From: Bacteriovorax stolpii
GTDB taxonomy: Bacteria; Bdellovibrionota; Bacteriovoracia; Bacteriovoracales; Bacteriovoracaceae
Direction: 5' to 3'
DNA: 32,505 nt
NCBI GenBank assembly: GCA_945905815.1
Contig: CAMDQH010000028.1
Span: 1-32,505 of the forward strand
A program made the position numbers and the translations under genes. Every line of letters begins with the position of its first letter. The stretch's first letter is position 1. Below the pieces are notes generated by a model. The model was not told where the DNA came from. It did no database searches and worked only from the letters and a program-made list of their open reading frames with translations. Below are positions 5,401-26,199 of the stretch, piece after piece.

Positions 5401-6017
5401 AAGACTAATTCTCGTTTCAATATTGGAATTAACGAATCCGGCCTAAGATAAACGCGATGATCGGAAACAACTTCGATACATCTAATTGAAGAGCTAGTTA
5501 GCTGTTTGGCAATGCTTGAATATTTCTCGTCATACTTACCGTATATAAAACTAATTTTATTTTTATGTTCAATCATCTTTGGCAGATAGTTCTCCTGTTC
5601 GGACAAGCGGTATGAGTCAAAATAATTACGATGCGCCTTAAACAATTCACGGGGGAAATTTTTATTGACCTGACTTTGGTTAAATAAATCAAGGGTGTCC
5701 CAGAACTTTAGAAAATCATCTACTCCAAGGGTATCCATCTTTTGAATAATTTGATCTTCCCAAGCCTTCCTATTGGGTTTGTCTTGTTCATCTAGTCCAG
5801 GATGCGAACTTAAAAGAATAAGCCTCTTGATGTTAAATTTTAAATCAATTGCAAGCTTCGTCGCAATCCGACCACCCATCGAATAACCAACGACAATATC
5901 TTCTTCTGTTACATCTGTGGGAAGGTTTTCAAGATCATATACTCGACAATCGCCAATCTCTAAGTATGGATTCCAAATGTCAGCACCGCCAAAAAGGCCG
6001 GAGATAAAATGAATCAT
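5397..6017 (-). CDS. menH: SHCHC synthase (MenH), alpha/beta hydrolase
   Basis: MenH removes pyruvate from the MenD product SEPHCHC to give SHCHC. The protein is a small alpha/beta hydrolase with the nucleophile elbow GYSMGG (Ser at about 46 from the chosen start), a late Asp in IYGKYDEKY and a catalytic His in SDHRVYL. An upstream TTG at 6026 would add three residues, but the ATG at 6017 forms an ATGA overlap with the menD stop and has GGGAAG just ahead, so I chose it (206 residues). It sits between menD and menA in pathway-consistent order. Sequence alone would also fit a generic hydrolase; the operon settles it. Confidence 0.9.
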   Translation of the reverse strand: MIHFISGLFGGADIWNPYLEIGDCRVYDLENLPTDVTEEDIVVGYSMGGRIATKLAIDLKFNIKRLILLSSHPGLDEQDKPNRKAWEDQIIQKMDTLGVDDFLKFWDTLDLFNQSQVNKNFPRELFKAHRNYFDSYRLSEQENYLPKMIEHKNKISFIYGKYDEKYSSIAKQLTSSSIRCIEVVSDHRVYLRPDSLIPILKRELVL

Positions 6018-7429
6018 GCTTCCCAACTTCTTAGCAATTCCAAGGTTTCAAAGTTAGATGGATTAACTTCAAAAACCTGAACAGAATTAAAAAATTCAAA
6101 ATCGTTTCGAGCATAAGTCAAACCAAAGGCGTGAGTAATTTTTTCAAAATTAAAACCATGCTCCATAATCATACGGGGATTCATCTTCATGACATTAAAG
6201 ATTTGACCGCCAAAATTATTTAAAATTATGAGTTTAAGATTTTGAGGTATAGAAGCGAGAGATGAGAGATCATATTGCGTTGTAATATCACCTAAAATGC
6301 AATAGACAATTTCACTTGTACTGTGGGCAAGACCGATTGCTGTCGATAGTTGTCCGTCAATTCCATTTGCCCCTCGATTAGCAAATATTTTAAAATCTCT
6401 AGTCTGGATCATTTCAAAAAAACGTATTGAAAGAGAGTTTCCGATAAAAACATGGGATCTCTCAGGTAAATATCCCTGCAGTCTCATGTGGAAGCTTAAT
6501 TCTGAATGAGGATACTTGATAAGAAGCTGATTTAAGTCCTGGTATTTTTTTTGAGGCAGAGTAAATGGCTTAATGATTGCGAGACTACTCTTCCATTTTT
6601 CTAAGCAGGTCAATTCCTTAGAAGAATATTTCATGAGGGCCCCGTAGGATAACGCTCCAAGGCCCCTTGAATCAAAACTAAACGTTGGTAGATGTTTTTT
6701 TTCAAGAAGTCGCCAGGCCTTACTTAACGGAGTATGCCCAATTCGAATAACGCTGGTAAATAATTTCTCATTGATAAGTTTTATACAGTCTGTTTCATAT
6801 TTTATTGTGGAAAGATCATGTCCCTGGCTTAGGGTTTCAGCATAAAAAGGAATTCCCGTTTGTATGAGGTGTTTAACAAAATCACGCATACTATCGGATT
6901 CATGACTAACAAGAATCAATGGACGGGGATGCTCTTTGAGAAATAGTTCGAACCCATCCCACGAATTTTCATAAAAAGGTGCATGAGAAGAATCAATCTC
7001 GTTTTCATTTTCAATAATAACATTAATATGGGCCGGATAACTCAACTTCGAAAAATCAAGACTTTGAAGTTCATGCGTGGAGACTTCTAAAAAGGTTCTT
7101 CGGTACTCACGAGATATAATTTCATGATTAATTGTTTGGGGAGCACCGGTTTTTTGCATCCTTGCGGGACGGTCGCCAGTTATAAGCAAAAGAGGCACAT
7201 CAGAATAATAAGCTTCCACCATAGCAGACAGACACTCCGAAACAGCGGTACCTGAAGTTGTACAAATAGCAACTGGTTGCTTGGTCGACTTAGCGAAACC
7301 CAGTGCTTTAAAGCTAGCTGCTCGTTCATCAATCTCTAAGCTAAGAGATTCTGTATTGAATAAAGACAACAAGGTTTGATTCCTGGCACCTGTACAAAAA
7401 TAAGTAAATGGCAGCTCAGAGAGCTTCAT
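6014..7429 (-). CDS. menD: SEPHCHC synthase (MenD), thiamine-diphosphate enzyme
   Basis: MenD condenses isochorismate with 2-oxoglutarate using ThDP, the first committed step of menaquinone synthesis. The N-terminal PYR domain shows EIDERAASFKALG with the ThDP-activating Glu near residue 35, then TTSGTAVSEC and ITGDRPARMQKTGAPQTI, all typical of MenD. The C-terminal PP domain has the GD...N metal-diphosphate motif (GDITTQYD followed by ILNNFGG). At 471 residues it is shorter than the roughly 550 of E. coli MenD; the reduction appears to lie in the middle domain. The start overlaps the menF stop as ATGA. Confidence 0.94.
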   Translation of the reverse strand: MKLSELPFTYFCTGARNQTLLSLFNTESLSLEIDERAASFKALGFAKSTKQPVAICTTSGTAVSECLSAMVEAYYSDVPLLLITGDRPARMQKTGAPQTINHEIISREYRRTFLEVSTHELQSLDFSKLSYPAHINVIIENENEIDSSHAPFYENSWDGFELFLKEHPRPLILVSHESDSMRDFVKHLIQTGIPFYAETLSQGHDLSTIKYETDCIKLINEKLFTSVIRIGHTPLSKAWRLLEKKHLPTFSFDSRGLGALSYGALMKYSSKELTCLEKWKSSLAIIKPFTLPQKKYQDLNQLLIKYPHSELSFHMRLQGYLPERSHVFIGNSLSIRFFEMIQTRDFKIFANRGANGIDGQLSTAIGLAHSTSEIVYCILGDITTQYDLSSLASIPQNLKLIILNNFGGQIFNVMKMNPRMIMEHGFNFEKITHAFGLTYARNDFEFFNSVQVFEVNPSNFETLELLRSWEA

Positions 7430-8460
7430 AATAGAATTTCTCTTGTCGCTTCAATTTTTTGATAAATTTCATTTAACTCACTGCTCTCAACTGATGCATC
7501 GACTACTCCGGCACCAGCTTCAAGGATAAGTTTATTATCTTTTAATTGTATGTTTCGGATCATCACGAGTGATCGTTCTTTGTTATCATAGCTGACCTTG
7601 AACACTGACCCATGTAGCCGTTCAGGAAAAGCTTTATAGTATTCTGTCTGCAGGAGAAAAGGTCTGGCCTTGTGCCTAGGATATCCACCTAGTGCTGCTG
7701 TGGGAGACATTGCCTTAATCAATTCATCTGAATTGAAATTCGTTTTGAGTTTGCCTTCAATCAAAGTTTTTAAATGCACTAAACGCCCATAGGATGCAGT
7801 ATGAGTGTTAAGTCTTTGTAGTTCCAGGCAAAAAGGAGCTAAGTCCTCCATGATATTTTTAATAACGAGATCGTGTTCGTGTCGATTTTTTTTAGATAAA
7901 AGAAGTTCCGCCCCTTGAGAAACAGGAGCTGTTCCGGCCAAAGCAAAACTTTTTATTGAGTCGCCTTCGCAATCAAATAAAATTTCAGGAGTGGAGCCAA
8001 TGATGGCGTAATGATTTTCCCAAAAGCCGTAAGGTTCCCCTATCGTCGTAAACAAGGCTTGGTGGATGGCATGTTTTTTTAAATCTTCCGGCCGATCAAC
8101 TGTATATTCGACCCGAGACATCAACACTGCTTTTTTTAAATCAGGCTGGGCCGCTCGATAAAGGCTAAAATCTTTTTGAAATGCATCTTCAAATTTTTGC
8201 TCATTTACTAATTCAAACCTGAGGGATTCTTGGGGTAATATCGCTTGTATTTCACTCAATGTGACAATAACTATATCTTCAGGATGATAAAACTTTTTTT
8301 CTTGATTATAGAAATCTCTTATCTCAAACTGGATTGAACCCGTGGAAGGGTATTGTTTCCAAGACCCACCTTTAGCAAGTACAATTTTCTCCTTTTTATC
8401 CAAGGAAAAAAAACACCCCGTTTGGTAAAAATTTTTATCAAACCAGCCAGATAAATCCAT
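7426..8460 (-). CDS. menF: Isochorismate synthase (MenF)
   Basis: MenF isomerises chorismate to isochorismate and belongs to the chorismate-binding (anthranilate synthase I) family. The conserved C-terminal block is clear: FALAGTAPVSQGAE, SPTAALGGYPRHKA, then IRNIQLKDNKLILEAGAGVV and a Glu-rich tail ending EIYQKIEATREIL. The longest frame begins at a TTG at 8472, but the ATG at 8460 overlaps the menB stop (TAATG) and has GGGTG about seven bases upstream, so I use it (344 residues). Menaquinone rather than siderophore function is inferred from the operon. Confidence 0.93.
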   Translation of the reverse strand: MDLSGWFDKNFYQTGCFFSLDKKEKIVLAKGGSWKQYPSTGSIQFEIRDFYNQEKKFYHPEDIVIVTLSEIQAILPQESLRFELVNEQKFEDAFQKDFSLYRAAQPDLKKAVLMSRVEYTVDRPEDLKKHAIHQALFTTIGEPYGFWENHYAIIGSTPEILFDCEGDSIKSFALAGTAPVSQGAELLLSKKNRHEHDLVIKNIMEDLAPFCLELQRLNTHTASYGRLVHLKTLIEGKLKTNFNSDELIKAMSPTAALGGYPRHKARPFLLQTEYYKAFPERLHGSVFKVSYDNKERSLVMIRNIQLKDNKLILEAGAGVVDASVESSELNEIYQKIEATREILL

Positions 8461-9344
8461 TAATACACCCAAGGAAATTTATTCCATTCTGGTTCTCTTT
8501 TACCTAGAAAAGCTTCTTTACCTTCTTTCGCCTCATCAGAACCATAGGCCAGACGTGTCGCCTCTCCAGCAAAAATTTGTTGGCCAACCATTCCATCGTC
8601 TATCATGTTAAAAGCAAATTTAAGCATTTTCATAGCGGTTGGTGATTTTTGGCAAATGATGTGTGCCCAGGCAAGAGCTTCTGTTTCCAGGTCAGCATGA
8701 GCAACGACTTTATTGACCATACCCATTTGAAAAGCTTCTTCAGCTGAATAGGTTTGACCAAGAAAGAAAATTTCTCGCGCTCTTTTTTGGCCGATTTGTT
8801 TTGCCAGGTAAGCGGAACCGTATCCACCGTCAAAACTTGCAACATCAGGATCAGTTTGACGAAATTTTGCATGTTCCCTAGAAGCAATGGTTAAATCACA
8901 AACGCAATGAAGAGAATGTCCTCCTCCAACTGCCCACCCTGGTACTGCAGCAATAACTATTTTTGGCATAAACCTAATCATGCGCTGAACTTCTAAAATA
9001 TGGAGCCTTCCGTGGGGCAGATGACTCTCTTCTTCATCATATTCGTAACCTGTTTTACCTCTCACATTTTGATCCCCTCCTGCACTAAAAGAATAAACTC
9101 CATCTTTAGACGAGGGGCCATTGCCTGTAAGAATAATTGCACCTACATCATTTTGGCGATGGGCCCATTCGAAAGCAGTTAAGAGTTCGTCAACAGTTAG
9201 AGGCCTAAAAGCATTACGCATGTCTGGCCTATTGAAGGCAATTCGTACTGCTCCAGTTGAATTTGCTTTATGAAGGGTAATATCTTTAAAAGAATATCCT
9301 TTGATCTCTGACCAGGCGTTGTCATTAAAAATCGGAGAAATCAT
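8460..9344 (-). CDS. menB: 1,4-dihydroxy-2-naphthoyl-CoA synthase (MenB)
   Basis: MenB is a crotonase-fold enzyme that closes the second ring, converting o-succinylbenzoyl-CoA to DHNA-CoA. Diagnostic segments are FSAGGDQNVRG, VPGWAVGGGHSLH with the oxyanion-hole glycines, and KFRQTDPDVASFDGGYGSAY, which is specific to MenB among crotonases. The C-terminal EPEWNKFPW is also typical. The length of 294 residues is normal or slightly long. The ATG has GAGG a few bases upstream; the gap from ubiE is seven bases and the stop shares one base with the menF ATG. Confidence 0.97.
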   Translation of the reverse strand: MISPIFNDNAWSEIKGYSFKDITLHKANSTGAVRIAFNRPDMRNAFRPLTVDELLTAFEWAHRQNDVGAIILTGNGPSSKDGVYSFSAGGDQNVRGKTGYEYDEEESHLPHGRLHILEVQRMIRFMPKIVIAAVPGWAVGGGHSLHCVCDLTIASREHAKFRQTDPDVASFDGGYGSAYLAKQIGQKRAREIFFLGQTYSAEEAFQMGMVNKVVAHADLETEALAWAHIICQKSPTAMKMLKFAFNMIDDGMVGQQIFAGEATRLAYGSDEAKEGKEAFLGKREPEWNKFPWVY

Positions 9345-9351
9345 ATGGACC

Positions 9352-10029
9352 TCACTTCTTAGCTTGATAAATGTATGCTATCCCTCCAAAAAGGGGGGTA
9401 AAGGAAAGATGCTTAAAATCAGTATGTTGTTTCAGAAGATCCAAAAAATTTTCACCAGACGGAAAGCTAGCAGATGAAGTAATCAAATAATCATAAGCAT
9501 CGCCGCGACCACTGATGAAACTAAAAACGGGAAAATAAATTTTAAGCAATCCAAAATACAAAAAAGAAAAAAAACTATTTTCAGGCCTTCCAAACTCTAA
9601 AATATATGTCGAACTTGAGACGCGCGAAAGCTCTTTAAGTGCTAGTGGTAAATCTTCAACATTTCTAATTCCAAAAGAAACTGTAGCTGATTCAAAGGAT
9701 TTATCTGGAAATGGTAAGGCACTAAGATCAGAGACTTGAAATTTAACCTTAGAGCCGGCCGCCTCGCCTCTTTTAAGAGCGAGTTTTATCATTTGAGGTG
9801 AAAAATCTATCGCTGTTATACTATGTGATCCAAGCTTCTCTATTAAAAAAGCAATGTCTCCGGTTCCTGTAGCACAATCAAGAACCCGGTTTTCATTTTC
9901 AGAAGTAGCAAGTTTGGCCAACTTGTTTTTCCAAAGACGATGAGTCCCCATGGATAAGATATCATTCAAGATATCGTATCTTCCTGAGATATCGTCAAAC
10001 ATTGTCTTAATAAATTCGGCTTTAGGCAT
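9352..10029 (-). CDS. ubiE: Demethylmenaquinone methyltransferase (MenG/UbiE)
   Basis: This SAM-dependent C-methyltransferase makes menaquinone from demethylmenaquinone. The 225-residue protein begins KTMFDDISGRYDILND, the signature start of UbiE/MenG. SAM motif I is LDCATGTGDIAFL, followed by DFSPQMIKLA and SFGIRNVEDLPLAL, the latter another UbiE signature. It lies one base after aroF and seven before menB. With only menaquinone genes around and no ubiquinone-specific gene in view, the menaquinone role is the more likely one. Confidence 0.95.
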   Translation of the reverse strand: MPKAEFIKTMFDDISGRYDILNDILSMGTHRLWKNKLAKLATSENENRVLDCATGTGDIAFLIEKLGSHSITAIDFSPQMIKLALKRGEAAGSKVKFQVSDLSALPFPDKSFESATVSFGIRNVEDLPLALKELSRVSSSTYILEFGRPENSFFSFLYFGLLKIYFPVFSFISGRGDAYDYLITSSASFPSGENFLDLLKQHTDFKHLSFTPLFGGIAYIYQAKK

Positions 10030-10030
10030 A

Positions 10031-10798
10031 TTATACTCTTAGTACTTTATTAAAATGAGGAGCAAGTTCTTTAATTTTTTGGACGAGCTCAGTCGCGATC
10101 TCAGGCCCAATTGATTGTTGTCCATCTGAAAGAGCGTTATCAGGATCAGGGTGAACCTCAACCATAATTCCATCTGCTCCTGCGGCCAATGCTGCAACTG
10201 CTGCATCCGAAACATAACGACGATCGCCCATGGCATGAGAAGGATCAACAATGACTTTAAAAGCAGTATTTTTCTTTAAATAAATAACGCTTCCAAGATC
10301 GAGAAGATTTCTAAGCTTATTATCAAAAGACCTTACGCCTCTTTCACACAAAATAATGTTTTCCTGCCCTAATGCTTGCAAATACTCAGAGGCACCAAGC
10401 CATTCACTTATGGTGGCACTAAAGCCTCGTTTCAATATAACCGGCACTTGATAATTACCAAGCTCTTTTAAGAGTTCATAGTTATACATATTGCGGGCAC
10501 CTACTTGAAAACAACTTACAATCGGCAGGAGACCATCAATTTGTCGGGGATCAGTGATCTCTGTTACAAAACTCAATTTATGACTTTTTTTAATTTCTTT
10601 TATTAATTCAATTCCGACAATTCCAAGGCCTTGGAAAGAGTTTTTATTTGTCCGCATTTTATAAATGCCACCCCTTATTACAGAGGGACCAAATGGCAAA
10701 CTTAAAATCGCCTTCATTTGTTCAGAACTCTCAACGGCACATGGGCCGCCAATGAATAAAAATTCGTTTTTATCTATAAAAGGTGTTTCATTTTTCAT
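10031..10798 (-). CDS. aroF: 3-deoxy-7-phosphoheptulonate (DAHP) synthase, AroF/KDO8PS-like type
   Basis: The enzyme condenses phosphoenolpyruvate with erythrose 4-phosphate, the entry to the shikimate pathway that yields chorismate. The short 255-residue form lacks an ACT or chorismate-mutase regulatory domain, so feedback regulation is not visible. Motifs of the I-beta class are GGPCAVES near residue 17, MRTNKNSFQGLG, PVILKRGFSATISEW, and VDPSHAMGDR with DGIMVEVHPDP near the end. The ATG overlaps the prenyl synthase stop (ATGA). Placement inside the men operon suggests it feeds chorismate to menaquinone; whether it is the only DAHP synthase cannot be seen here. Confidence 0.93.
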   Translation of the reverse strand: MKNETPFIDKNEFLFIGGPCAVESSEQMKAILSLPFGPSVIRGGIYKMRTNKNSFQGLGIVGIELIKEIKKSHKLSFVTEITDPRQIDGLLPIVSCFQVGARNMYNYELLKELGNYQVPVILKRGFSATISEWLGASEYLQALGQENIILCERGVRSFDNKLRNLLDLGSVIYLKKNTAFKVIVDPSHAMGDRRYVSDAAVAALAAGADGIMVEVHPDPDNALSDGQQSIGPEIATELVQKIKELAPHFNKVLRV

Positions 10799-11718
10799 CT
10801 TACACGTCCTTGAACACCCTCGAGGAACTGTAATACACTTTTATATTCATCGGATGAATGAGAGATATTTTCTTTTTCAGCAAGTACAAACAATAGGTGA
10901 TACGTCTCTTCGAACAATTCGGTGACTTTTTCGAAAGTTTTTAATTTTGCGTCCTCTATTTGATTATCTGTCCATGGAGGATTATCAAATTTTGTGCCGC
11001 GAAGTTGGTATATCGCATAATAAAGTTCTGGATAGCTCTGGATAAGATTCAGAGTCGTAAAATTGATTAACCCTTCTTTTAAATCTTTTGCATACTCCTT
11101 ACCTGAAGATAAAGAGTAGTCCAAATTATCATCAACCAATTGAAAGGCAAGGCCAAGTTTAAAACCAAGCTGTTTACAGATCTCTTGAGACTCTAAGCTT
11201 AGTCCAGTCGTTACTGCTACTGAATGACAATTCCAGGCTATAAGTGCCCCGGTTTTTTTAAGGGCCACAGACTCTAAGTCTTCCCAATTTACATGTGCTT
11301 TCAATTTTAGTTCATCTTGTTCAAATTCTCCTGCTACAATTTCTTCTAACGTTTCAGCAAGAGTTTTCAAGATTTCATATTTTTCAAGTCGCACAAGTTC
11401 AGCAATGACACTTGCCAATAAATAGTCCCCGGCCAAGACCGCTTTCGAATTGGGCATAAAAGAGTTTAATGTTGGCCGGTCACGTCTTATGAAAGCATTA
11501 TCTACAACATCATCATGTATAAGGGACGCATTATGTATGAGCTCACTGGCCCAACAGATATCTCTACAATTTTCTTCCCCAAGTTTGAGCAATTTGCCTA
11601 ATTGCATAGTCAGTTTGGGACGAAAAAGTTTTCCTGGGCTTTCTAAGTGATTGTTAAGGATCTTATATACTACTGATCCTGATCGGATTTTATCTGCTGC
11701 CATACCTAAATTAAGCAT
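10795..11718 (-). CDS. Long-chain trans-polyprenyl diphosphate synthase (menaquinone side chain)
   Basis: This isoprenoid synthase elongates farnesyl diphosphate to the C30-C45 tail used by MenA. The first Asp-rich motif is HDDVVD (Asp69-Asp73), followed by RRDRPT, and the second is VDDNLD (195-199); GKLFRPKL near residue 30 binds the substrate diphosphate. Small residues ahead of the first motif (NASLIHDD) fit a long-chain product, but chain length cannot be fixed by eye. The 307 residues match IspB/HepT proteins. This is the first gene of the ten-gene men operon; an AAAGGG ribosome site precedes the ATG and a perfect inverted repeat lies 22-42 bases upstream. Confidence 0.92.
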   Translation of the reverse strand: MLNLGMAADKIRSGSVVYKILNNHLESPGKLFRPKLTMQLGKLLKLGEENCRDICWASELIHNASLIHDDVVDNAFIRRDRPTLNSFMPNSKAVLAGDYLLASVIAELVRLEKYEILKTLAETLEEIVAGEFEQDELKLKAHVNWEDLESVALKKTGALIAWNCHSVAVTTGLSLESQEICKQLGFKLGLAFQLVDDNLDYSLSSGKEYAKDLKEGLINFTTLNLIQSYPELYYAIYQLRGTKFDNPPWTDNQIEDAKLKTFEKVTELFEETYHLLFVLAEKENISHSSDEYKSVLQFLEGVQGRVR

Positions 11719-11740: not shown

Positions 11741-11760
11741 AGTTTAAGCTTCCTTAAACT
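11741..11760. repeat. Perfect 8-base inverted repeat ahead of the men operon
   Basis: AGTTTAAG at 11741-11748 and CTTAAACT at 11753-11760 are perfect inverted copies with a 4-base centre. The element lies 22-42 bases before the ATG of the first men gene, within its probable 5' untranslated leader or promoter, and about 125 bases before the divergent photolyase-related gene. It could be a dimeric-repressor operator or an mRNA hairpin. No clear -10/-35 pair for the men operon could be chosen. Confidence 0.45.
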
Positions 11761-11885
11761 ACCCTAGCTCCCTTGGTTTTGCTTAACCCATTTGGCCTGT
11801 CTAGTTTTTGATACATGTTTGTTTAAACTATTTCCGGCTTAAATTAGATGCTGCAATTAACTTCAAATTCAAATATAGTTCATGT

Positions 11886-13370
11886 ATGAACACGGCCTTA
11901 GTTATTCTCGGTGACCAACTTTTTCCAATTAAGTTTTATGCCTCATTGCCGCATAAATTAGTTTTTATGGCAGAAGATGTTGGGCTTGCAACTCATTACA
12001 AATATCATAAGCACAAGATAGCCTTTTTTTTCGCCTCAATGCGTTCATATGCTGATGAACTTCGTGAATTAAAATTCAATTTAACTTACATGGAACTTTC
12101 AGATATAAGTTTCATAGACGGTCTAAAATCTTTTGTAAAAAAAAACAAAGTTTCTAAAATCTGCATGGCCGAAGTGCAGGATAAGTTTTTTGAATCATTA
12201 CTGGTTTCTTTTTTTATGGAAAACAATATTACTCATGAATTTCTTGAGTCCCCCATGTTTTTATGTCCCCGAACAGAATTTAAAAAATACCTCCTAAAAC
12301 ATCCAAAGCCTTTCATGAAATCTTTTTATGAAAAAGAAAGAAAAAGACTCAGTATTCTTTTAACTCCAAGCGGGACACCTGTTGGTGGGCAATGGAGCTT
12401 TGATGACGAGAATAGAAAAAAAGCGCCAAAAGTATTAACAAATCTTAAGATTTTAGAGCACCCTAAAAATGTAACCCTAAACGAGGTGATAATATTAATT
12501 AATAAAAAGTTCCCATCTCATCCAGGTTCTCTTGATAATTTCTGGCTCCCAGTAAATAGAAAAGAGTCGTTAAAAACTCTTAAACATTTCTTAAAAAATC
12601 ATTTAGCTGATTTTGGAAGCTATCAAGATGCAATTACTACACGAGACCCCTTTTTATTTCATTCGATGATCTCTCCTATGCTCAACAATGGATTAATCAC
12701 ACCGCAAGAAGTCATTGAGCACACGTTGAAAACGATGAGTGAAAACTCAGAAATACCACTTCATTCTGTTGAGGGCTTTTTAAGGCAAATCTTAGGATGG
12801 AGAGAATTTGTAAGAGGAATCTATCAGAATTTTTCAGAAAAAGAAGAAAACACGAATTTCTTTAATCATCAAAGAAAACTTTCAAGCCACTGGTACGATG
12901 GAACAACAGGAATTTTGCCTGTTGATGATGCTATTAAAAAAGCTAACAAGTATGGTTATTGTCACCATATTGAGCGACTGATGATTCTATCCAATATCAT
13001 GCTCTTGTCAGAGATTGACCCCAAAGAAGTTCATAGATGGTTTATGGAAATGTTTGTTGATAGTGCAGACTGGGTCATGGGACCTAACGTATACGGGATG
13101 GGACAATTTTCCGATGGAGGATTATTTGCTACCAAGCCATATATTTCAGGAAGTAATTATATCCTTAAAATGTCTGATTATAAAAAAAATGATGAATGGA
13201 CTAATATCTGGGATGGTCTTTACTGGAGATTTATCGATAAACACTCTGTGTTTTTCTCAAAAAATCACCGAATGAATATGATGGTTAAGCTATCTGAGAA
13301 GATGGATCCCGATAAGAAATTAAAATTGTTTGAATTTGCAGAAATTTTTATCAAATCTAAAACAATCTAG
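11886..13370 (+). CDS. Cryptochrome/photolyase-related protein (FeS-BCP type) lacking the cluster cysteines
   Basis: The protein belongs to the deoxyribodipyrimidine-photolyase-related family, whose studied members are FAD proteins with (6-4) photolyase or cryptochrome roles. It starts MNTALVILGDQLFP and has GWREFVRGIY (304-313), CHHIERLMILSN (359-370), DWVMGPNVYGMGQFSDGG (395-412) and TKPYISG, all family hallmarks. Its 494 residues are near normal. The [4Fe-4S] cysteines are absent: ILPVDDAIKK replaces the first Cys region, and the loop between MSDY (429-432) and LYWRF is about 12 residues with no Cys instead of a longer C-x2-C-x12-C loop. A TTG at 11808 would add 26 atypical residues, so I chose the ATG at 11886. 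TATAGT at 11874-11879 could make a leaderless transcript. It overlaps the next gene tail-to-tail by 4 bases. Confidence 0.92.
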   Translation: MNTALVILGDQLFPIKFYASLPHKLVFMAEDVGLATHYKYHKHKIAFFFASMRSYADELRELKFNLTYMELSDISFIDGLKSFVKKNKVSKICMAEVQDKFFESLLVSFFMENNITHEFLESPMFLCPRTEFKKYLLKHPKPFMKSFYEKERKRLSILLTPSGTPVGGQWSFDDENRKKAPKVLTNLKILEHPKNVTLNEVIILINKKFPSHPGSLDNFWLPVNRKESLKTLKHFLKNHLADFGSYQDAITTRDPFLFHSMISPMLNNGLITPQEVIEHTLKTMSENSEIPLHSVEGFLRQILGWREFVRGIYQNFSEKEENTNFFNHQRKLSSHWYDGTTGILPVDDAIKKANKYGYCHHIERLMILSNIMLLSEIDPKEVHRWFMEMFVDSADWVMGPNVYGMGQFSDGGLFATKPYISGSNYILKMSDYKKNDEWTNIWDGLYWRFIDKHSVFFSKNHRMNMMVKLSEKMDPDKKLKLFEFAEIFIKSKTI

Positions 13371-15710: not shown

Positions 15711-16007
15711 ATGAGCATATCACGCAAGCTGAAAAGCAAGTTTGAAACTTTTACGATTGAAGACACTGACCGGATCGTCAGAATGGGATGGGAAGATCGA
15801 ACGAGCTACCAGGCGATTGAATTACAATTTGGTTTAACACCTTCTGAGTTAGTTCACTTTATGCGTTTTACTTTAGACCATAGCAGTTTCAAAAGATGGC
15901 GCAGAAGAGTTTTCGAGCAGGGCAAACTAAAGAACTCGCCACACAAAGATTTTCGGTTTAAGTGCAAATCCCAGAGGATGGATGGAAGTACCAAGAATTA
16001 TAAATAA
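15711..16007 (+). CDS. TIGR03643-type small protein of photolyase neighbourhoods
   Basis: The 98-residue basic, soluble protein contains IEDTDRIVRMGWEDRTSYQAIE and a GLTPSELVHFMR...FKRWRRRV segment, which I recognise as the TIGR03643 family. Such proteins are small, of unknown function, and commonly found with cryptochrome/photolyase genes. The middle looks like a helix-turn-helix-like fold (GWEDRTSYQAIELQFGLTPSELV), which suggests nucleic acid contact, but that is inference. The last ten bases overlap the convergent membrane-protein gene. CACTTGTAAAA at 15673-15683 upstream loosely resembles the box near gbsR/folE. Confidence 0.8.
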   Translation: MSISRKLKSKFETFTIEDTDRIVRMGWEDRTSYQAIELQFGLTPSELVHFMRFTLDHSSFKRWRRRVFEQGKLKNSPHKDFRFKCKSQRMDGSTKNYK

Positions 16008-16420
16008 GGCCAAATGATTAAGATCAGAAGTTTTAAGGTCCACAGGAATGTCCTTATCCAGTTTGTTTGAACCAGTCGCCCAATTAATATTGTATTCTTA
16101 CCTTCAAGTAACTTTTCATGCAAAGGGACTTGGATAAAGAAAGTGGATAGCCAAATAAGAATAACTAAAAACACGCTTACAGAAGAATACACGGTAGTTT
16201 TTTCGTAAAAAATCCAGCAAGTGACAAATAGCTCTGTCAGCATGAGAGGAATTGTAACAAACGAAATACCTCGCTGATGAGATATCATTGCCACGGAAAA
16301 ATCCTCTTCCTCATAATAAAAGAAACTGGGGTAATGGAGAATCTGAACTATCCATATAAGAACAAACAGTCCAAAACTGACAAGAAGATTTATGTGATCA
16401 GGCGAGAAATGTTTTATCAC
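15998..16420 (-). CDS. Small polytopic membrane protein, DUF1772-like pattern
   Basis: The 140-residue protein has four hydrophobic helices. Conserved-looking polar motifs sit between them: VQILHYPSF after helix 1, then FIQVPLHEKLLEG and LVQTNWIRTFLWTLK before the last helix. The NWIRT...W ending resembles DUF1772-type membrane proteins, but the match is by eye and tentative. The start is a GTG at 16420 with AGAGAAG about seven bases upstream; no ATG is available near. It overlaps the preceding membrane-protein gene by 23 bases, implying co-translation, and is the last gene of the folE-osmC-membrane unit. Confidence 0.65.
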   Translation of the reverse strand: MIKHFSPDHINLLVSFGLFVLIWIVQILHYPSFFYYEEEDFSVAMISHQRGISFVTIPLMLTELFVTCWIFYEKTTVYSSVSVFLVILIWLSTFFIQVPLHEKLLEGKNTILIGRLVQTNWIRTFLWTLKLLILIIWPYL

Positions 16421-16778
16421 GCTTGTACTTCTCTTTTAATAAATTAAAAAATGATGGCCACCAAATGAGATCGTTGAAAATGATGATCACCCCAAACGCC
16501 AAGGGAAACCGGTTAGTCAAAAGTGCTTGGGCAAAGCCAATGGGACCCAGGATTTTACCTAAGAAGCCCACTAAGACGATAGGAAAGTGTCGATATGGAT
16601 CAGAGGCCGCTATCCAATAACCAACCCCATAGACTCCCACAATCATCCCTACACATTGCCAAATCTCGGGATAATTATTTTTCTCCATCCCTAGTAATTC
16701 AAACATGGCATTGGGGAATAAAATAACCCATGCACCCCAGATCACATTATAAATGGCCGCAAGCTTAAGAGCTTTCAT
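16398..16778 (-). CDS. Small polytopic membrane protein, family not recognised
   Basis: The protein is mostly hydrophobic, with about four helices and the segments AAIYNVIWGAWVILFP, GVYGVGYWIAA, GKILGPIGFAQAL and NDLIWWPSFF. I do not recognise a named family. The frame is open from an upstream ATG at 16847, but that would overlap the OsmC gene by 65 bases and add a polar tail. The ATG at 16778, just after the OsmC stop and with AGGT upstream, gives a 126-residue protein that begins directly at the first helix. It is probably co-transcribed with the OsmC-like and folE genes. Confidence 0.65.
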   Translation of the reverse strand: MKALKLAAIYNVIWGAWVILFPNAMFELLGMEKNNYPEIWQCVGMIVGVYGVGYWIAASDPYRHFPIVLVGFLGKILGPIGFAQALLTNRFPLAFGVIIIFNDLIWWPSFFNLLKEKYKRDKTFLA

Positions 16779-16782
16779 AATA

Positions 16783-17211
16783 TTACCTGTAAATGATTTG
16801 TGAAATGATTTCAGTTTTGACTGACTGAAGAATGAAACCATTCTCAAGGGTCTTTTTAATTAATAGATCGGCCTTCTTCTTGTCTGAAGGATTACTCAAT
16901 TCAATTATTAATTTACATGCCTTCATTACAGGTTTTAAATTTTCATTTTTATCTACAATTAATTCGCTAGAGACATTCAGTTGGTCAAAACTCAAACGTG
17001 AATATTCAGCGTAGACCTTAAATGTTGCGACAAAGCAATTCTGAAGCGAGAGAAGAAAAAAATCTTCCGGACTAAAAGCTCCGCCGGCCCCCTCAAACTC
17101 CTTAGGGACAGAGCACGTTGTATCCAAACCAGAAGATGTAACCTTCCACTCATTTTGTATTCCTGAACTGGCCCTACTTGCACCATGAAAAGAAATCGGA
17201 TAGCTGATCAT
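16783..17211 (-). CDS. OsmC/Ohr-like protein lacking the usual second cysteine
   Basis: The 142-residue protein matches the OsmC fold: GAGGAFSPEDFFLLSLQNCF places Cys59 at the start of the central helix, the position of the peroxidatic Cys. The partner Cys normally found near residue 126 is absent (ENGFILQSV); Cys33 and Cys99 are elsewhere. OsmC/Ohr proteins reduce organic hydroperoxides with a Cys pair, so this member may use another partner or have a binding role. The ATG has GAGG five bases upstream. It lies 14 bases downstream of folE. A role in handling photo-oxidised lipids fits the neighbourhood but is inferred. Confidence 0.75.
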   Translation of the reverse strand: MISYPISFHGASRASSGIQNEWKVTSSGLDTTCSVPKEFEGAGGAFSPEDFFLLSLQNCFVATFKVYAEYSRLSFDQLNVSSELIVDKNENLKPVMKACKLIIELSNPSDKKKADLLIKKTLENGFILQSVKTEIISQIIYR

Positions 17212-17225
17212 ATAAACCTCATTTA

Positions 17226-17831
17226 TTAATCAATTGATTTCCAAAGACGTAATTTTTCATCTGGAGTCAGATTTTCCAGGCCTCTGGAGCTTTCAGTAAT
17301 AGTTTCTGAGCCATTTTTCTTAACCCCTCTCATCATCATGCACATATGGGAACCAGAAACCTTAACCAAAACGGCACGGGCACCAATGAGTGTCATCAAG
17401 CCGGAACAAATTTGATCAGTAAGCCTTTCTTGGACCTGGAGCCTTTTTGCAAAAACATCAACAAGTCTGGGTATTTTTGATAGTCCAATAATTTTATCGC
17501 TGGGATAGTAGGCCACACTCGCTCTGCCCCAAAATGGCAGCATGTGATGCTCGCATAAAGAAAAGAAATCAATATCTTTAATGCTAATCAGGCCAGCGCC
17601 TTCGCCGGGAAATATTCCCTCTCCAACAGCATCAGCTGGAGTCAATAAATATCCAGAGCAAACTTCATGAATGGCTTTAGAAAATCTCTGAGGGGTATTT
17701 AAAAGTCCCTCCCTCTGAGGGTTTTCGCCTACTGACTTTAAAATGAGTTCACCTGCCATCTTGGCATAGTCCATATGTGTTGGGTTAAAAATGGCTTGAT
17801 TTAAATCAAGTCCTCTATCAGAATTTTTCAA
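17226..17831 (-). CDS. folE: GTP cyclohydrolase I (FolE)
   Basis: FolE converts GTP to dihydroneopterin triphosphate, the first step of folate/pterin synthesis. The zinc ligands are visible: Cys and His in FFSLCEHHML (about residues 93 and 96) and Cys in GSHMCMMMRG (about 164). IGLSKIPRLVDVFAKRLQVQERLT is the classic FolE segment. No ATG fits: the first is about 20 codons in. The TTG at 17831 has AAGGA seven bases upstream, whereas the TTG at 17837 is too close to it, so the start is probably TTG (201 residues). Extra copies of folE are known members of photolyase/LitR clusters, where they may raise folate antenna for photolyase. Whether this is the sole folE cannot be told here. Confidence 0.95.
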   Translation of the reverse strand: MKNSDRGLDLNQAIFNPTHMDYAKMAGELILKSVGENPQREGLLNTPQRFSKAIHEVCSGYLLTPADAVGEGIFPGEGAGLISIKDIDFFSLCEHHMLPFWGRASVAYYPSDKIIGLSKIPRLVDVFAKRLQVQERLTDQICSGLMTLIGARAVLVKVSGSHMCMMMRGVKKNGSETITESSRGLENLTPDEKLRLWKSID

Positions 17832-17881
17832 TTTCAAGTCCTTTGCCTTGTTTTTTAAGTGGGGCTTAATCCTCTAGCCAC

Positions 17882-17910
17882 ATATACTTATAGTTTAATA
17901 CATTGTAAAC
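17882..17910 (-). promoter_or_regulatory. folE promoter overlapping an ACAYTGTAAAC box
   Basis: On the minus strand TTTACA (17909-17904) and TATATG (17886-17881 region) are separated by 17 bases, a good sigma70-like pair about 50 bases before the folE start. The -35 hexamer lies inside GTTTACAATGT, the reverse complement of the box ACATTGTAAAC at 17900-17910. A nearly identical box sits at 18010-18020 in the divergent gbsR promoter. Promoter and operator roles are inferred. Confidence 0.45.
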
Positions 17911-18003
17911 AGCAACAAACATCTCTTGGACATTAAAATGCTGTCCCAAGTGATTGTTATTAAAGCGCCGTCGAAAGAAAGTTAAATCGTTCGTGACTTT
18001 AAG

Positions 18004-18037
18004 TTCAGGACACTGTAAACTCTATTTAAAATACAGT
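18004..18037 (+). promoter_or_regulatory. gbsR-merR promoter with ACTGTA-N14-TACAGT inverted repeat
   Basis: ACACTGTAAAC at 18010-18020 is the second copy of the box seen near folE. Its ACTGTA (18012-18017) is mirrored by TACAGT at 18032-18037, giving an inverted repeat with a 14-base centre. A candidate -10 TAAAAT (18027-18032) and weak -35 TTCAGG (18004-18009), 17 bases apart, place the repeat across the spacer and -10, as expected for an autoregulatory operator of the following regulator genes. This is inferred from position and symmetry. Confidence 0.45.
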
Positions 18038-18049
18038 AGGTAAAAATCT

Positions 18050-18520
18050 ATGAAAAACAACAATCTACCTGAACTTGAATACCTAGCCGACCTGGTGGGA
18101 GAATTTATTGAGTACTGGGGTTTTAAAAAGATCCATGGAAAGATTTGGCTCAATCTCTATTTAAGTGATGCTCCCCTGGATGCAGCTGCGCTAATGGCAA
18201 AGCTTAATGTGTCCAAGGCACTCATAAGTATATCAATCAAGGATCTACTTGAATTTGAAGTAATCATTGAGCATGGACTTAGCCCAGAGGGTACAAGAAT
18301 CTATGGAGCAAACCCTGACCTCCACACGGTTATTAGTCATGTCCTAAGACAAAGAGAAAAGGTAATGATGGGTAAAATTCAAGCAGCATTTTTGCAATTG
18401 AAAAACATTTCCAAAGAAGAAATTTCTATAAATAGAATAGAGTTTAGTCGAGTCAAAGAATTAGACCGCTTCATTAAGAACGGTGAAAAAGGTTTAAATA
18501 CTTTGATGGCGATTCTTTAA
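18050..18520 (+). CDS. GbsR/MarR-family transcriptional regulator
   Basis: The 156-residue protein opens with LADLVGEFIEYWGFKKIHGKIWLNLYLSD, the pattern of GbsR-type winged helix-turn-helix proteins, followed by the recognition region LMAKLNVSKALISISIKDLLEFEVI and a wing ending GTRIYGA. The C-terminal half is helical and likely dimerises. No ligand can be inferred. The ribosome site is AGTAGG. It lies 12 bases before the MerR gene, so the two regulators are almost certainly co-transcribed, and it is divergent from folE across a 218-base region holding two copies of one box. It may regulate that region alone or with the MerR protein. Confidence 0.85.
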   Translation: MKNNNLPELEYLADLVGEFIEYWGFKKIHGKIWLNLYLSDAPLDAAALMAKLNVSKALISISIKDLLEFEVIIEHGLSPEGTRIYGANPDLHTVISHVLRQREKVMMGKIQAAFLQLKNISKEEISINRIEFSRVKELDRFIKNGEKGLNTLMAIL

Positions 18521-18532
18521 AAAGGTAATACA

Positions 18533-19060
18533 ATGAATGATTTTAACATTCAGGCTGCATCATTAATCAGTGGAGTTTCGGTCCACCAAATCAGAGCTTG
18601 GGAACGAAGATATAATGCTGTCAGACCTAGAAGGCTGGACAATAATTTCAGGTCTTATACACAAGAAGATATAACAAGACTGAAGTTGTTAGGTACTCTA
18701 ACAAAACATGGTATTGCCATAAGTAAGATTGCAGCCTTAGATGTTGCCGAACTACAGTATCAGAACGAGTTACTAACGCCTATAGAGAATCATCGCACGG
18801 AAATACATAACGGCAACGATGACAAAGAACGGCTTATTTTTTTGCTCTCATTTTTGAGTGCAAAAAAATTAGATATTTTGAAATATGAAGTCACAAAGTT
18901 TAATACCCTGAATAGCATCATCGAAATACTGATCCCGCTTATGAAGCGAGTCATGGTGCAATCAGATTTAACAAGTGATGATTCCCAAAGCTTATTAGTA
19001 ACATTGATAGAGCAAATTAATAAAATTTCAATCCAGGCATGTCATAAGAATGCCTCTTAA
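18533..19060 (+). CDS. MerR-family regulator, CarH/LitR type, without B12-binding domain
   Basis: Residues 1 to about 70 are a MerR DNA-binding domain of the CarA/CarH/LitR subgroup: AASLISGVSVHQIRAWERRY, then FRSYTQEDITRLKLL and HGIAISKIAAL. Residues 90-175 are helical and correspond in position to the small helical domain that caps B12 in CarH, but they contain no Trp or Glu-His pair of the cap motif. The protein ends at 175, where CarH/LitR proteins continue for about 100 more residues into the cobalamin-binding Rossmann domain. DNA recognition therefore looks intact while B12 light sensing looks impossible. AAAGG precedes the ATG. It is followed 26 bases later by the epimerase gene. Confidence 0.87.
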   Translation: MNDFNIQAASLISGVSVHQIRAWERRYNAVRPRRLDNNFRSYTQEDITRLKLLGTLTKHGIAISKIAALDVAELQYQNELLTPIENHRTEIHNGNDDKERLIFLLSFLSAKKLDILKYEVTKFNTLNSIIEILIPLMKRVMVQSDLTSDDSQSLLVTLIEQINKISIQACHKNAS

Positions 19061-19086: not shown

Positions 19087-20454
19087 ATGAAAGTTTTAAT
19101 TACAGGTTCCACAGGACTTGTTGGTAAAGAGCTTGGCAAAAAACTTGTGATGGAAGGACATAGCCTTGTCGTTCTAGTGCGGAATGCTGAAAAAGCTAAG
19201 CTGGACCTTCCTTTTCCGGCAGAAATTTTCGAATGGTACGGACAAAAAGACCTCCCACTTGTCGAAGCCTTAAAAGGTGTTGAAGCTGTTATTCATTTGG
19301 CAGGAGAATCAATTGCAAGTGACAGATGGACTGAAAAAAGAAAAAAACAAATATATGATTCGCGTATTCTTTCAACACGAATCCTCGCCGAGGCGATAAA
19401 TAAGACAGCATCTGTAAAAACATTTATATCTGCCTCTGCCATTGGTATTTATGGAAACACCGGAAATGAACTTATAAGTGAGACACATGCCCAAGGTAAG
19501 GATTTCTTGGCCAACGTTTGCCAAAACTGGGAATTCGAAACTAAGAGAGTTGATACCAGGGTAAGGGTCGTTAACCTGAGAATTGGTGTAGTACTCTCTC
19601 GACAGGGAGGAGCACTTGAAAAACTTATTCCATTGTTTTCTGCGGGACTCGGTGGAGTCATTGGAAATGGCAGTCAATGGATGAGCTGGATACACATTCA
19701 AGATCTTGTTAATTTATGTTCTTTCAGCTTAACCCAAGAATCTATACGTGGTCCCTACAATGCTGTTGCATCAAGTCCGGTAACAAACAAAATTTTTAGC
19801 CAATGTCTTGCCAAAGCAATAGGACGTTCATTATTTTTCCCAGTTCCAAGTTTGGTTATGAAGATTGCAATGGGAGATATGTCGACCATTGTTTTGGCCA
19901 GTCAGAATGTAAACTCACAAAAAATCACAGATGCAGGCTTTAAGTTTACCTACCCACAAATCGAAGGTGCATTTGACGAAATATGTAGTCCTATTCATAA
20001 TGGCCAAAGGGAATATTTAGCCGAGCAGTGGGTCCCGCATACTTCTAAAGAAATATTCCCATTTTTTTGCAACGAAAAAAACTTAGAAAAGCTCACTCCC
20101 GATTTCCTCAATTTTAAAGTATTAAAAAAATCCACGAATGAAATTCAGGAAGGAACACTTATTGAATACCAATTGAAGTTGCATGGAATCCCTCTAAAGT
20201 GGAAAAGTAAGATTGGAAAATGGGAACCAGGAACTTCGTTCGTAGACGACCAGGTCGCCGGGCCATACAAGCGCTGGAATCACACCCATGAATTCATACC
20301 GATGTCTTCAGGTACTCTAATGCGGGATAGAGTTTCATACACTTTACCACTGGGCCGTATCGGAGACCTGCTTTTAAGCTGGAAACTGGTTAAAGATGTT
20401 AATAGAATATTTACTTACCGCAGAAAGGTAATTAGTAGTTTATTTGCTTCATAA
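19087..20454 (+). CDS. TIGR01777 epimerase-like domain fused to SRPBCC domain
   Basis: Residues 1 to about 295 form an extended-SDR Rossmann domain of the TIGR01777/YfcH type: ITGSTGLVGKEL at the N-terminus for NAD(P), HLAGESIASDRWTEKRK, SASAIGIYG with the Tyr, and NLRIGVVLSRQGGALEKL. Residues about 310-455 match an SRPBCC ligand-binding domain (EQWVPHTSKEIFPFFCNEKN, KLHGIPLKWKSKI, QVAGPYKRWNHTHEF). This two-domain form is common next to photolyase and MerR genes. No substrate is known; automatic labels as a SulA-like cell-division inhibitor should not be trusted. It is probably the third gene of the gbsR-merR unit and overlaps the flavoprotein gene tail-to-tail by 23 bases. Confidence 0.9.
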   Translation: MKVLITGSTGLVGKELGKKLVMEGHSLVVLVRNAEKAKLDLPFPAEIFEWYGQKDLPLVEALKGVEAVIHLAGESIASDRWTEKRKKQIYDSRILSTRILAEAINKTASVKTFISASAIGIYGNTGNELISETHAQGKDFLANVCQNWEFETKRVDTRVRVVNLRIGVVLSRQGGALEKLIPLFSAGLGGVIGNGSQWMSWIHIQDLVNLCSFSLTQESIRGPYNAVASSPVTNKIFSQCLAKAIGRSLFFPVPSLVMKIAMGDMSTIVLASQNVNSQKITDAGFKFTYPQIEGAFDEICSPIHNGQREYLAEQWVPHTSKEIFPFFCNEKNLEKLTPDFLNFKVLKKSTNEIQEGTLIEYQLKLHGIPLKWKSKIGKWEPGTSFVDDQVAGPYKRWNHTHEFIPMSSGTLMRDRVSYTLPLGRIGDLLLSWKLVKDVNRIFTYRRKVISSLFAS

Positions 20455-24937: not shown

Positions 24938-24966
24938 GGCCTCACTTCGGTGAGGCCTTTTTTTTT
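24938..24966 (+). terminator. Rho-independent terminator of sdhCAB
   Basis: GGCCTCAC (24938-24945), a TTCG loop, and GTGAGGCC (24950-24957) form a perfect 8-bp stem with the extra-stable UUCG tetraloop, followed by nine T residues. It begins 15 bases after the sdhB stop and ends beside the convergent mazF stop. Confidence 0.95.
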
Positions 24967-25294
24967 AATCAAAAAACATCTGCTTAAGTACAAGTTTGAT
25001 CTGAATAACTTCTGTTATTTTTAATTTAGATATTTTTTTTTTGAGTCTTTTTTTCGATACAGTCCTAATCTGTTCACACAACGCCTGACCTTCTTTACCA
25101 TCAAAAATCGTATCCACTCTAGTTGGCCAGTCTTTCTTCTTAGTCGTGAGAGGAACTACAATTATTGTATCCAACTGTTCATTCATAGAATCAGGAGAGA
25201 CGACAACACATGGACGCAGCCCTGCTTGCTCTGATCCTTTGACTGGATCAAGAACAACATCCCACACTTCCCCTCTATGAATTTCGGTCTTCAA
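24965..25294 (-). CDS. mazF: MazF-family endoribonuclease toxin
   Basis: The 109-residue protein fits MazF/PemK: IHRGEVWDVVLDPVKGSEQ, LRPCVVVSPDSMN, IIVVPLTTKKKDWPTRV and ALCEQIRTVSKKRL, all typical. MazF toxins cleave mRNA at short sequences when the antitoxin is degraded. The start is a TTG at 25294 with GGAG seven bases upstream inside mazE; no ATG lies nearby. It overlaps mazE by 20 bases, giving antitoxin-first coupling. Its stop abuts the T-run of the sdh terminator. Confidence 0.93.
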   Translation of the reverse strand: MKTEIHRGEVWDVVLDPVKGSEQAGLRPCVVVSPDSMNEQLDTIIVVPLTTKKKDWPTRVDTIFDGKEGQALCEQIRTVSKKRLKKKISKLKITEVIQIKLVLKQMFFD

Positions 25295-25511
25295 GATTTG
25301 ACTCCAACCATTCCCGATCTTCTTTTGAAAGAGCGGTATCTTTAAAAACCCATTTTGTGGAATGAGGACGTTTTTTGACTAGAAGTATCACGCCCTTCTC
25401 GGCAATTAATTCATACTCGAAAGATTCATCAAAGCCTGCAGCTTCAAGATCATTCTTTGAAACTCTGAACCCAAAGGAATTACCTATTTTTTGAAGTTTT
25501 GCTGCACTCAT
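25275..25511 (-). CDS. mazE: MazE-like antitoxin (AbrB swapped-hairpin fold)
   Basis: The antitoxin begins SAAKLQKIGNSFGFRVSKNDLEAAG, a MazE/AbrB-type DNA-binding hairpin, followed by a strand pair (YELIAEKGVILLV) and an acidic tail (KEDREWLESNLEDR) suited to blocking the toxin. The frame is open to a GTG at 25550, with another ATG at 25517. I chose ATG 25511 (78 residues), which starts directly at the conserved domain. No ribosome site precedes it because a 16-base palindrome lies immediately upstream, so the start is uncertain. It is followed by mazF with a 20-base overlap. Confidence 0.85.
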   Translation of the reverse strand: MSAAKLQKIGNSFGFRVSKNDLEAAGFDESFEYELIAEKGVILLVKKRPHSTKWVFKDTALSKEDREWLESNLEDRNS

Positions 25512-25513
25512 AC

Positions 25514-25529
25514 ACATGTTATAACATGT
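25514..25529. promoter_or_regulatory. Perfect 16-base palindrome at the mazE start (putative operator)
   Basis: ACATGTTATAACATGT is an exact palindrome ending two bases before the chosen mazE ATG. Type II antitoxins usually bind such palindromes to repress their own operon. Its position at the start codon means the promoter would lie in the 3' end of the PilZ gene (stop at 25543) and the transcript leader would be very short, or translation starts further upstream. Confidence 0.6.
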
Positions 25530-25542
25530 TACCACATCAATA

Positions 25543-26199
25543 TCAAGCACTCAAAATGATCCGACACTTGTTCTTTAAACGACTAAAAACATTCCAATTA
25601 AGCGGAACACTCAACGAAAGCCCTACCCGTTCGTCCTGCTTTTTTGGTGTCACATACAAAACTGTTCCAAAAATGTCCCGATCCAGGGTTTTATGGCCTA
25701 TCTCCTTAATCCAAAAATGGTCACACGGCCTTAAAAAGTCCTTATTCGATCCGGAAATCATAATGCCGATGCCACTCTCTGAAACATCAATAAGTCTAAC
25801 CTCTAGTCCTGGAGTCATCTCTTTAATAGAACGGGCAAATCTTTGAATAGATATGGACATATCCAAGTCGAAAGGAAAAACATAGCGGTCGGTAGGTCTC
25901 ATGGCCAATGCTCTAACTTCTTTGGGAATGGAGCAAATAAGTTTATTGCCGATAACTTGAAACTGCTCACGCTCTAGTCTGATAAAAATCGGATACCCCT
26001 GCTCCACTTGAGAAAGTGAAGTGCTTTTCAAGATGATTTTCTCATGAAAGGAATCAAACTCAAGTTGAATGAAATGGAATACGGTACGCTTCTGCTCAGC
26101 TCCGACTTGCCAAAAATCCCCACCGAAAGAGGCGCCTCTTTCGATTGCAGATACAATGTGAATATGTTTTTGCATTTGCTCGTGTTTGGAAAAATCCAT
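25543..26199 (-). CDS. PilZ-domain protein, likely c-di-GMP receptor
   Basis: The 218-residue protein has an N-terminal region of about 95 residues and a C-terminal PilZ domain. The PilZ c-di-GMP contacts are present: RPTDR (R-x3-R, about 101-105) and DVSESG (D-x-S-x2-G, about 138-143), with GLSLSV near the end. The frame is open from 26223, but ATG 26199 has AAGGA six bases upstream and is preferred. The N-terminal half aligns by eye with the ORF at 27559-27795 (FWQ/IWQ, KR, LEF/LEV), showing a paralogue with the same architecture. Its stop is 31 bases before mazE. Confidence 0.82.
   Translation of the reverse strand: MDFSKHEQMQKHIHIVSAIERGASFGGDFWQVGAEQKRTVFHFIQLEFDSFHEKIILKSTSLSQVEQGYPIFIRLEREQFQVIGNKLICSIPKEVRALAMRPTDRYVFPFDLDMSISIQRFARSIKEMTPGLEVRLIDVSESGIGIMISGSNKDFLRPCDHFWIKEIGHKTLDRDIFGTVLYVTPKKQDERVGLSLSVPLNWNVFSRLKNKCRIILSA

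Follow-up and report, generated by a model that had tools for sequence, protein, structure and literature searches.

A short LitR/CarH-type MerR regulator without a B12 domain and its conserved GbsR-like operon partner in Bacteriovorax stolpii

Genes and features of the locus

The stretch analysed (the window) comprises 32,505 nt and is a whole contig (C28) of the 3.0-Mb genome of Bacteriovorax stolpii. It contains a gene for a short MerR-family regulator preceded by a GbsR-like gene, with folE, photolyase-related and menaquinone genes in the neighbourhood. The relatives used for comparison include Halobacteriovorax/Bacteriovoracaceae MAGs. The main features, in order of position, are as follows.

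10795-11718, minus strand: polyprenyl synthase, first gene of the DAHPS-UbiE-Men operon, predicted target
11742-11759, no strand: GTTTAAGCTTCCTTAAAC, the sole exact palindrome of this genome, preceding both the polyprenyl synthase/DAHPS/UbiE/Men operon and the photolyase-related gene
11798-11825, plus strand: candidate CarH-type repeat TGTCTA..TGATAC..TGTTTA in 11-bp phase, not above chance in the window alone, its support coming from other promoters
11886-13370, plus strand: deoxyribodipyrimidine photolyase-related protein (DPRP), predicted target
15998-16420, minus strand: small membrane protein, 140 aa, a homologue of which sits between the GbsR and short MerR genes in five relatives
17226-17837, minus strand: GTP cyclohydrolase I (FolE), divergent from GbsR, predicted target
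17893-17910, no strand: GTTTAATACATTGTAAAC, palindrome with one mismatch, between folE and GbsR
18003-18020, no strand: GTTCAGGACACTGTAAAC, imperfect second copy with three mismatches just 5' of GbsR, weak alone; a second copy occupies this place in relatives too
18050-18520, plus strand: GbsR-like (Mj223-fold) regulator, conserved operon partner, 12 nt upstream of the short MerR gene
18533-19060, plus strand: short LitR-like MerR regulator, 175 aa, with an HTH (about 6-81) and a four-helix bundle (94-174), without a B12 Rossmann domain
19087-20454, plus strand: TIGR01777-family SDR with a C-terminal cyclase-like part, probably co-transcribed here, not beside the module in relatives

The short MerR gene may plausibly control this local cluster. 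The polyprenyl synthase gene heads a nearly complete menaquinone operon (2632-11718, minus strand) and has the exact palindrome 24 bp ahead of it. By resemblance, the products of the operon are polyprenyl synthase, DAHP synthase, UbiE, MenB, MenF, MenD, MenH, MenA, MenC and MenE. Two adjacent ORFs of 91 and 109 aa (24965-25550, minus strand) resemble a MazE/MazF-type pair by eye.

Domain content and fold of the short regulator

The ORF begins with ATG at 18533 and ends with TAA at 19058-19060, and its 175-residue translation contains both IRAWERRY and FRSYTQEDI. The MerR HTH is the sole Pfam domain (residues 5-68; MerR_1, 54 bits), and B12-binding Pfam models gave no match, even at E 0.1. The NCBIfam models MlrA (36 bits) and CarH (28 bits) are both distant and far under their cut-offs, while CarA (2jml) and CarH were the nearest solved structures in a sequence search. 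The AlphaFold model (mean pLDDT 85) places the HTH at 6-81, followed by a low-confidence linker (84-94) and helices at 94-109, 113-120, 126-142 and 148-174. Full-length CarH chains of T. thermophilus are its top fold matches. Residues 2-170 of the model, covering HTH and bundle, align to CarH 5-160, which indicates that the short protein ends about where the B12 Rossmann domain would start. This alignment over two domains has a high rmsd (14-18 A), which probably reflects a different placement of the HTH and the bundle relative to each other.

The protein thus has the N-terminal HTH of the CarH type and, by fold only (AlphaFold model and CarH matches), the four-helix bundle that forms the cap in CarH. 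Of the CarH cap residues W131, E141 and H142 (PMC11796333) none is kept in the alignments, the Glu-His being replaced in the alignment with full-length paralogues, and the Rossmann domain with the ExHxxG histidine (H177) is missing because the protein ends earlier. The preliminary description, made from the DNA alone, had proposed a CarH/LitR-like MerR protein of 175 aa with neither a cobalamin-binding domain nor the cap Glu-His. Pfam, alignments and fold comparison confirm a LitR/CarH-type regulator without a B12 domain, and the alignment with the paralogues confirms the loss of Glu-His. The same description had also counted the loss of the cap Trp; the residue is indeed absent but is not diagnostic. 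A full-length LitR encoded elsewhere in this genome (C139, L041) has Val at the position of CarH Trp131, yet it aligns with CarH over both the cap and the Rossmann domain, with AQEH and GELHEIG retained (AEEH and GERHEIG in CarH), so Trp loss alone says little in this genus.

Conservation of the short form

Orthologues of the short MerR protein occur in six other congeneric genomes, with lengths of 173-184 aa and 51-56% identity. When a profile of the short form was run against 369 genomes of the phylum, these seven proteins were the only strong ones among the matches listed, the others among them being open frames of about 300 aa or more. In the closest pair (G006 and G024) dN/dS is about 0.03 both in the HTH and in the helical part, a ratio that is rough because dS is high. 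Purifying selection acts on both domains.

The stop codon is followed after 26 nt by the next start (19087), a gap into which no remnant of a domain of about 130 aa fits, and the earlier statement that no extra domain is encoded downstream holds. The presence of the same short form in six further genomes rules out that a frameshift from sequencing or a truncation of recent date produced it in this strain, the possibility against which the preliminary description had asked for a check. A truncated remnant of a B12-binding LitR, left by a frameshift or by gene decay, might be suspected from the protein being shorter than the other LitR-like proteins found and from the window copy being the most diverged of the seven. 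This reading is scarcely credible, as the end point is common to seven genomes, selection maintains HTH and bundle alike, and the space before 19087 is too small; we rejected it.

Full-length LitR proteins and phylogeny

All seven genomes with the short MerR gene encode a separate LitR-like protein of 310 aa. In the genome studied here its gene adjoins an acetyl-CoA synthetase-like gene. The full-length LitR is found in essentially the whole genus, also where the short form is lacking. Intact B12-binding orthologues in close relatives had been named in the preliminary description as evidence that would count against it. On this point the outcome is mixed. LitRs with Glu-His and a D/ExH motif do adjoin the same kinds of cluster genes in congeners without the short form, namely folE (G025, G017), phr (G003) and TIGR01777 (G018), the final Gly of ExHxxG being Asn in the G017 protein. 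The short proteins form a clade of their own (support 100/99) apart from these LitRs, and this separation led us to reject recent truncation of a LitR of the folE or phr clusters. None of the LitRs compared was identified as a full-length orthologue of the short protein. AU tests did not reject grouping of the short proteins with the full-length paralogues or with GbsR-linked LitRs (p 0.31-0.38), the value for kinship with the GbsR-linked, ligand-less LitRs of other genera being p = 0.31.

Since CarH oligomers form contacts through the four-helix bundle, the short LitR might partner the full-length B12-type LitR and tune or dampen its light response. In its favour, all seven genomes encode the full-length protein, Glu-His and ExHxxG are intact in the copy of the genome studied here, and the short protein retains the bundle. 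We nevertheless regard such a heteromer as quite unlikely, because the full-length LitR occurs genus-wide, also without the short form, so that there is no pair-specific co-inheritance, and because its gene lies elsewhere, beside acetyl-CoA synthetase.

One further protein may bear on the history of the group. On contig C49 of G014 (L064/L089) a 304-aa LitR without Glu-His and ExHxxG heads a DAHPS-UbiE operon, with two palindrome copies in its promoter. It is possibly an intermediate form related to the short protein, judging from a tree position with support of 62/88 and a long branch.

The GbsR-like partner and the module

The preliminary description had named two candidate partners that could carry the signal, a co-transcribed GbsR-like protein and the photolyase-related flavoprotein. 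The former is borne out as a conserved partner: a GbsR-like gene precedes the short MerR gene in one apparent operon in all seven genomes, and its products, at 70-77% identity, are conserved more than the short MerR proteins. A Foldseek search with the GbsR-like model returned Mj223 (1ku9) as top match (E 5e-8, 151 columns), with a MarR-like winged-helix architecture, and the CudC profile matched weakly (20.6 bits against a cut-off of 218). Five relatives carry a gene for a 139-144-aa membrane protein between the two regulator genes, overlapping the MerR start. The module lies near MeaB and methylmalonyl-CoA mutase genes (identified in G024, and by the coordinates of the mutase genes in the others) in convergent orientation in five of six relatives, and a photolyase/folE cluster adjoins it in none of the six, which makes that neighbourhood specific to this genome.

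The flavoprotein did not hold up as a signalling partner and was discarded, having no conserved linkage and not lying beside the module in relatives. In G016 the DPRP gene has a palindrome copy of its own, and with the absence of linkage this makes DPRP look like a target.

In other genera of the family GbsR homologues adjoin full-length LitRs without Glu-His and the ExHxxG histidine (L138-L144, L148), and the combination of a B12-less LitR with GbsR is thus a recurring pairing. Further homologues have menaquinone/polyprenyl genes as neighbours (L145, L146, L156) or lie close to photolyase, lipocalin, TIGR01777 or the pair of small membrane-protein genes (L150, L151, L153, L155, L157).

Within L150-L157 (for example L151, 4953-10052) GbsR homologues are found beside photolyase, lipocalin and the two small membrane-protein genes with no adjoining LitR, so GbsR alone may control such clusters. 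The two small membrane proteins of the window (140 and 149 aa; 15998-16847, minus strand) recur with GbsR or FolE/OsmC genes across the family, and the 140-aa protein shows faint similarity to anthrone oxygenase in two of six members (best E 0.0018).

Precedents exist for a different division of labour, in which some separate protein, a photoreceptor or an antirepressor, would bind the HTH of the short LitR and thereby switch this repressor, with GbsR as an independent regulator in the same operon. Three such pairs act through the HTH (BluF-BluR, PmSB-LOV-PmlR2 and CarS-CarA), the HTH is intact here, and this genome encodes a BLUF protein. The distribution of photoreceptors makes this arrangement unlikely: BLUF occurs in four of the seven short-MerR genomes and a LOV-like pattern, a pattern match that marks candidate LOV domains only, in three, neither beside the module; G024 (91% complete) shows neither, and the module is linked to no photoreceptor gene. 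This genome has no LOV-like motif. BLUF or LOV as a universal partner was rejected, each being missing from some of the seven genomes.

A palindrome associated with GbsR

The inverted repeat GTTTAA-N6-TTAAAC was first noticed 5' of GbsR in relatives, often in two copies. A spacer of six gave 18 matches in the module contigs and the window, and other spacers 0-3. The exact palindrome is present in 10 of 26 genomes of the genus, including all seven with the short MerR gene (Fisher p = 1.8e-4, a descriptive value because some of these genomes had served to find the motif). All 14 exact copies in these seven genomes lie 5' of the GbsR operon, of the polyprenyl synthase or DAHPS-UbiE-Men operon, of the photolyase-related gene or of a lipocalin gene. 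Three-mismatch copies in the window are at chance level, and one-mismatch copies number 21 genome-wide here against 33 for a control pattern, which is background. A genome-wide count of the palindrome across the order is near the control rate and uninformative.

G014 has GbsR (58%) but no short MerR gene, and three of its four exact copies precede polyprenyl synthase, folE and the LitR-DAHPS operon. Outside the genus, in G126, G131 and G084, the exact palindrome adjoins GbsR homologues, and no short MerR gene was found. In G013 and G009 the palindrome falls within or next to unrelated genes and seems to have arisen by chance. Promoters of full-length LitR loci beside folE, phr, lipocalin and TIGR01777 in congeners without a close GbsR have no palindrome with zero or one mismatch, none was found near the GbsR-linked LitRs of other genera, and G023, with a weaker GbsR homologue, has no exact copy.

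The palindrome tracks GbsR, also in genomes without the short MerR gene, from which we infer that it belongs to GbsR; GbsR most likely binds GTTTAA-N6-TTAAAC near gene starts. MerR proteins commonly bind palindromes or pseudopalindromes and every short-MerR genome has the palindrome, so the short MerR protein could itself be the binder, with another site or role left to GbsR. This is decidedly unlikely given that the palindrome stands beside GbsR in G014, G126, G131 and G084, where no short MerR gene was found.

A different inverted repeat, TGTATAG-N6-CTATACA, lies 5' of the full-length LitR genes beside phr and TIGR01777 (L067, 8330-8420; L069, 8240-8420).

Direct repeats of the CarH type

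A second element in several of the promoters above is an 11-bp direct repeat, TGTHTA-N5. Its reverse complement contains the TnnACA core known from the CarH/CarA repeat, for which PMC8156234 and PMC9304148 give the consensus. The operator form compared, tandem 11-bp direct repeats nnnnTnnACAn, is enriched in promoters of the relatives and at chance level in the window. With at most one mismatch, the 11-bp spacing is found in 11 of 19 promoters, compared with a mean of 0.34 and a maximum of 3 after shuffling; since the GbsR promoters are mutually homologous, perfect repeats occur in about three independent families (GbsR, lipocalin and G014 folE). The short LitR is the prime candidate for binding these repeats, and the full-length LitR paralogue could also bind them.

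Proposed regulatory circuit

Conservation, domain content, operon structure and the distribution of the palindrome are computed results. From them we infer the assignment of each protein to its site, and likewise dimerisation, repression and the signal. The explanation that we consider best, and to which we give about an even chance, is that a minimal B12-independent LitR-type factor and its operon partner GbsR jointly control a small photo-oxidative/menaquinone regulon. This regulon would comprise their own operon, the polyprenyl/menaquinone operon, the photolyase-related gene, folE and, in relatives, the lipocalin gene. GbsR, on the start-proximal palindrome, would be the signal-responsive and autoregulating part, and the short LitR would sit on the upstream repeats as a dimer. 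If the activity of the short LitR is not set by B12, the inducing signal would have to enter through a partner, most simply GbsR, whose ligand may be an isoprenoid, a quinone or an oxidation product. This dual circuit is favoured because no photoreceptor is universal and GbsR is the sole partner linked in all seven genomes. Several observations weigh against it: the 11-bp repeats do not exceed chance in the window, their promoters are partly homologous and reduce to the three or so families above, the full-length LitR of the same genomes could occupy them, the GbsR-linked LitRs of other genera have no palindrome nearby, and G023 pairs its weaker GbsR homologue with no exact copy.

A broader and somewhat doubtful extension is that a lineage of LitR photoreceptors swapped its built-in B12 chromophore for a co-encoded GbsR/MarR partner, giving a two-protein, two-operator switch that would couple photolyase expression to menaquinone/isoprenoid supply. 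The short LitR would then be the extreme product, and the ligand-less full-length LitRs beside GbsR in sister genera earlier or parallel stages.

If the dual circuit is true, light or photo-oxidative defence is linked to menaquinone synthesis in Bacteriovoracaceae, a family for which our literature search found nothing on light regulation. The switching of B12-less LitRs is known in few cases only, with LOV, BluF and CarS partners. The present system is small and offers a partner gene that is conserved, a defined palindrome and a handful of predicted targets, which makes the question of what replaces B12 directly testable.

Comparison with known systems

The short MerR protein resembles CarH and the class I LitRs of Thermus, Bacillus and Myxococcus in its HTH and four-helix bundle, which give the best fold match over model residues 2-170. 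It may also share the 11-bp direct repeats with a TnnACA core, candidates for which stand in related promoters. It differs from them in lacking the Rossmann B12 domain, Glu-His and ExHxxG and in having a GbsR partner. B12-less LitRs have been described as classes II, IV and V (PMC9758184). In class II (PplR/PmlR2 of Pseudomonas) the bundle is likewise kept and B12 binding lost, and in P. putida the class regulates, among others, photolyase, folE and a cryptochrome-like gene (PMC9758184). PmlR2, however, has an additional C-terminal domain (a truncated C-terminal construct is 25.9 kDa), whereas the short MerR protein ends after the bundle at 175 aa, and the partner of PmlR2 is a short LOV protein encoded by the adjacent gene in Pseudomonas mendocina, where the neighbours here are GbsR and the SDR. 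Classes IV and V (Vibrio and Micrococcales) are reported as homologues without a B12-binding domain and with unknown functions (PMC9758184); the likeness in domain content to the short MerR protein is by description only. The minimal architecture and the pairing with GbsR look new.

BluR-BluF of E. coli (PMC3509220) and CarA-CarS of Myxococcus (PMC8156234) are similar in that B12-independent MerR repressors are relieved by a partner protein, but BluR and CarA keep a C-terminal domain and are paired with a BLUF-EAL protein and an SH3-like protein rather than with GbsR.

On the side of the partner, our literature search found no paper tying GbsR to LitR or photolyase. In Corynebacterium, the MarR-type CrtR regulates carotenoid genes in response to isoprenyl pyrophosphates and has a part in light-inducible production of carotenoids (PMC5401885, PMC6739363); the isoprenoid-responsive CrtR is comparable to the GbsR partner by analogy only (PMC5401885). 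The partner has the Mj223/GbsR fold and so resembles the GbsR/MarR regulators GbsR, CudC and Mj223. CudC is named for choline uptake and conversion, whereas GbsR here is linked to photolyase, menaquinone genes and LitR.
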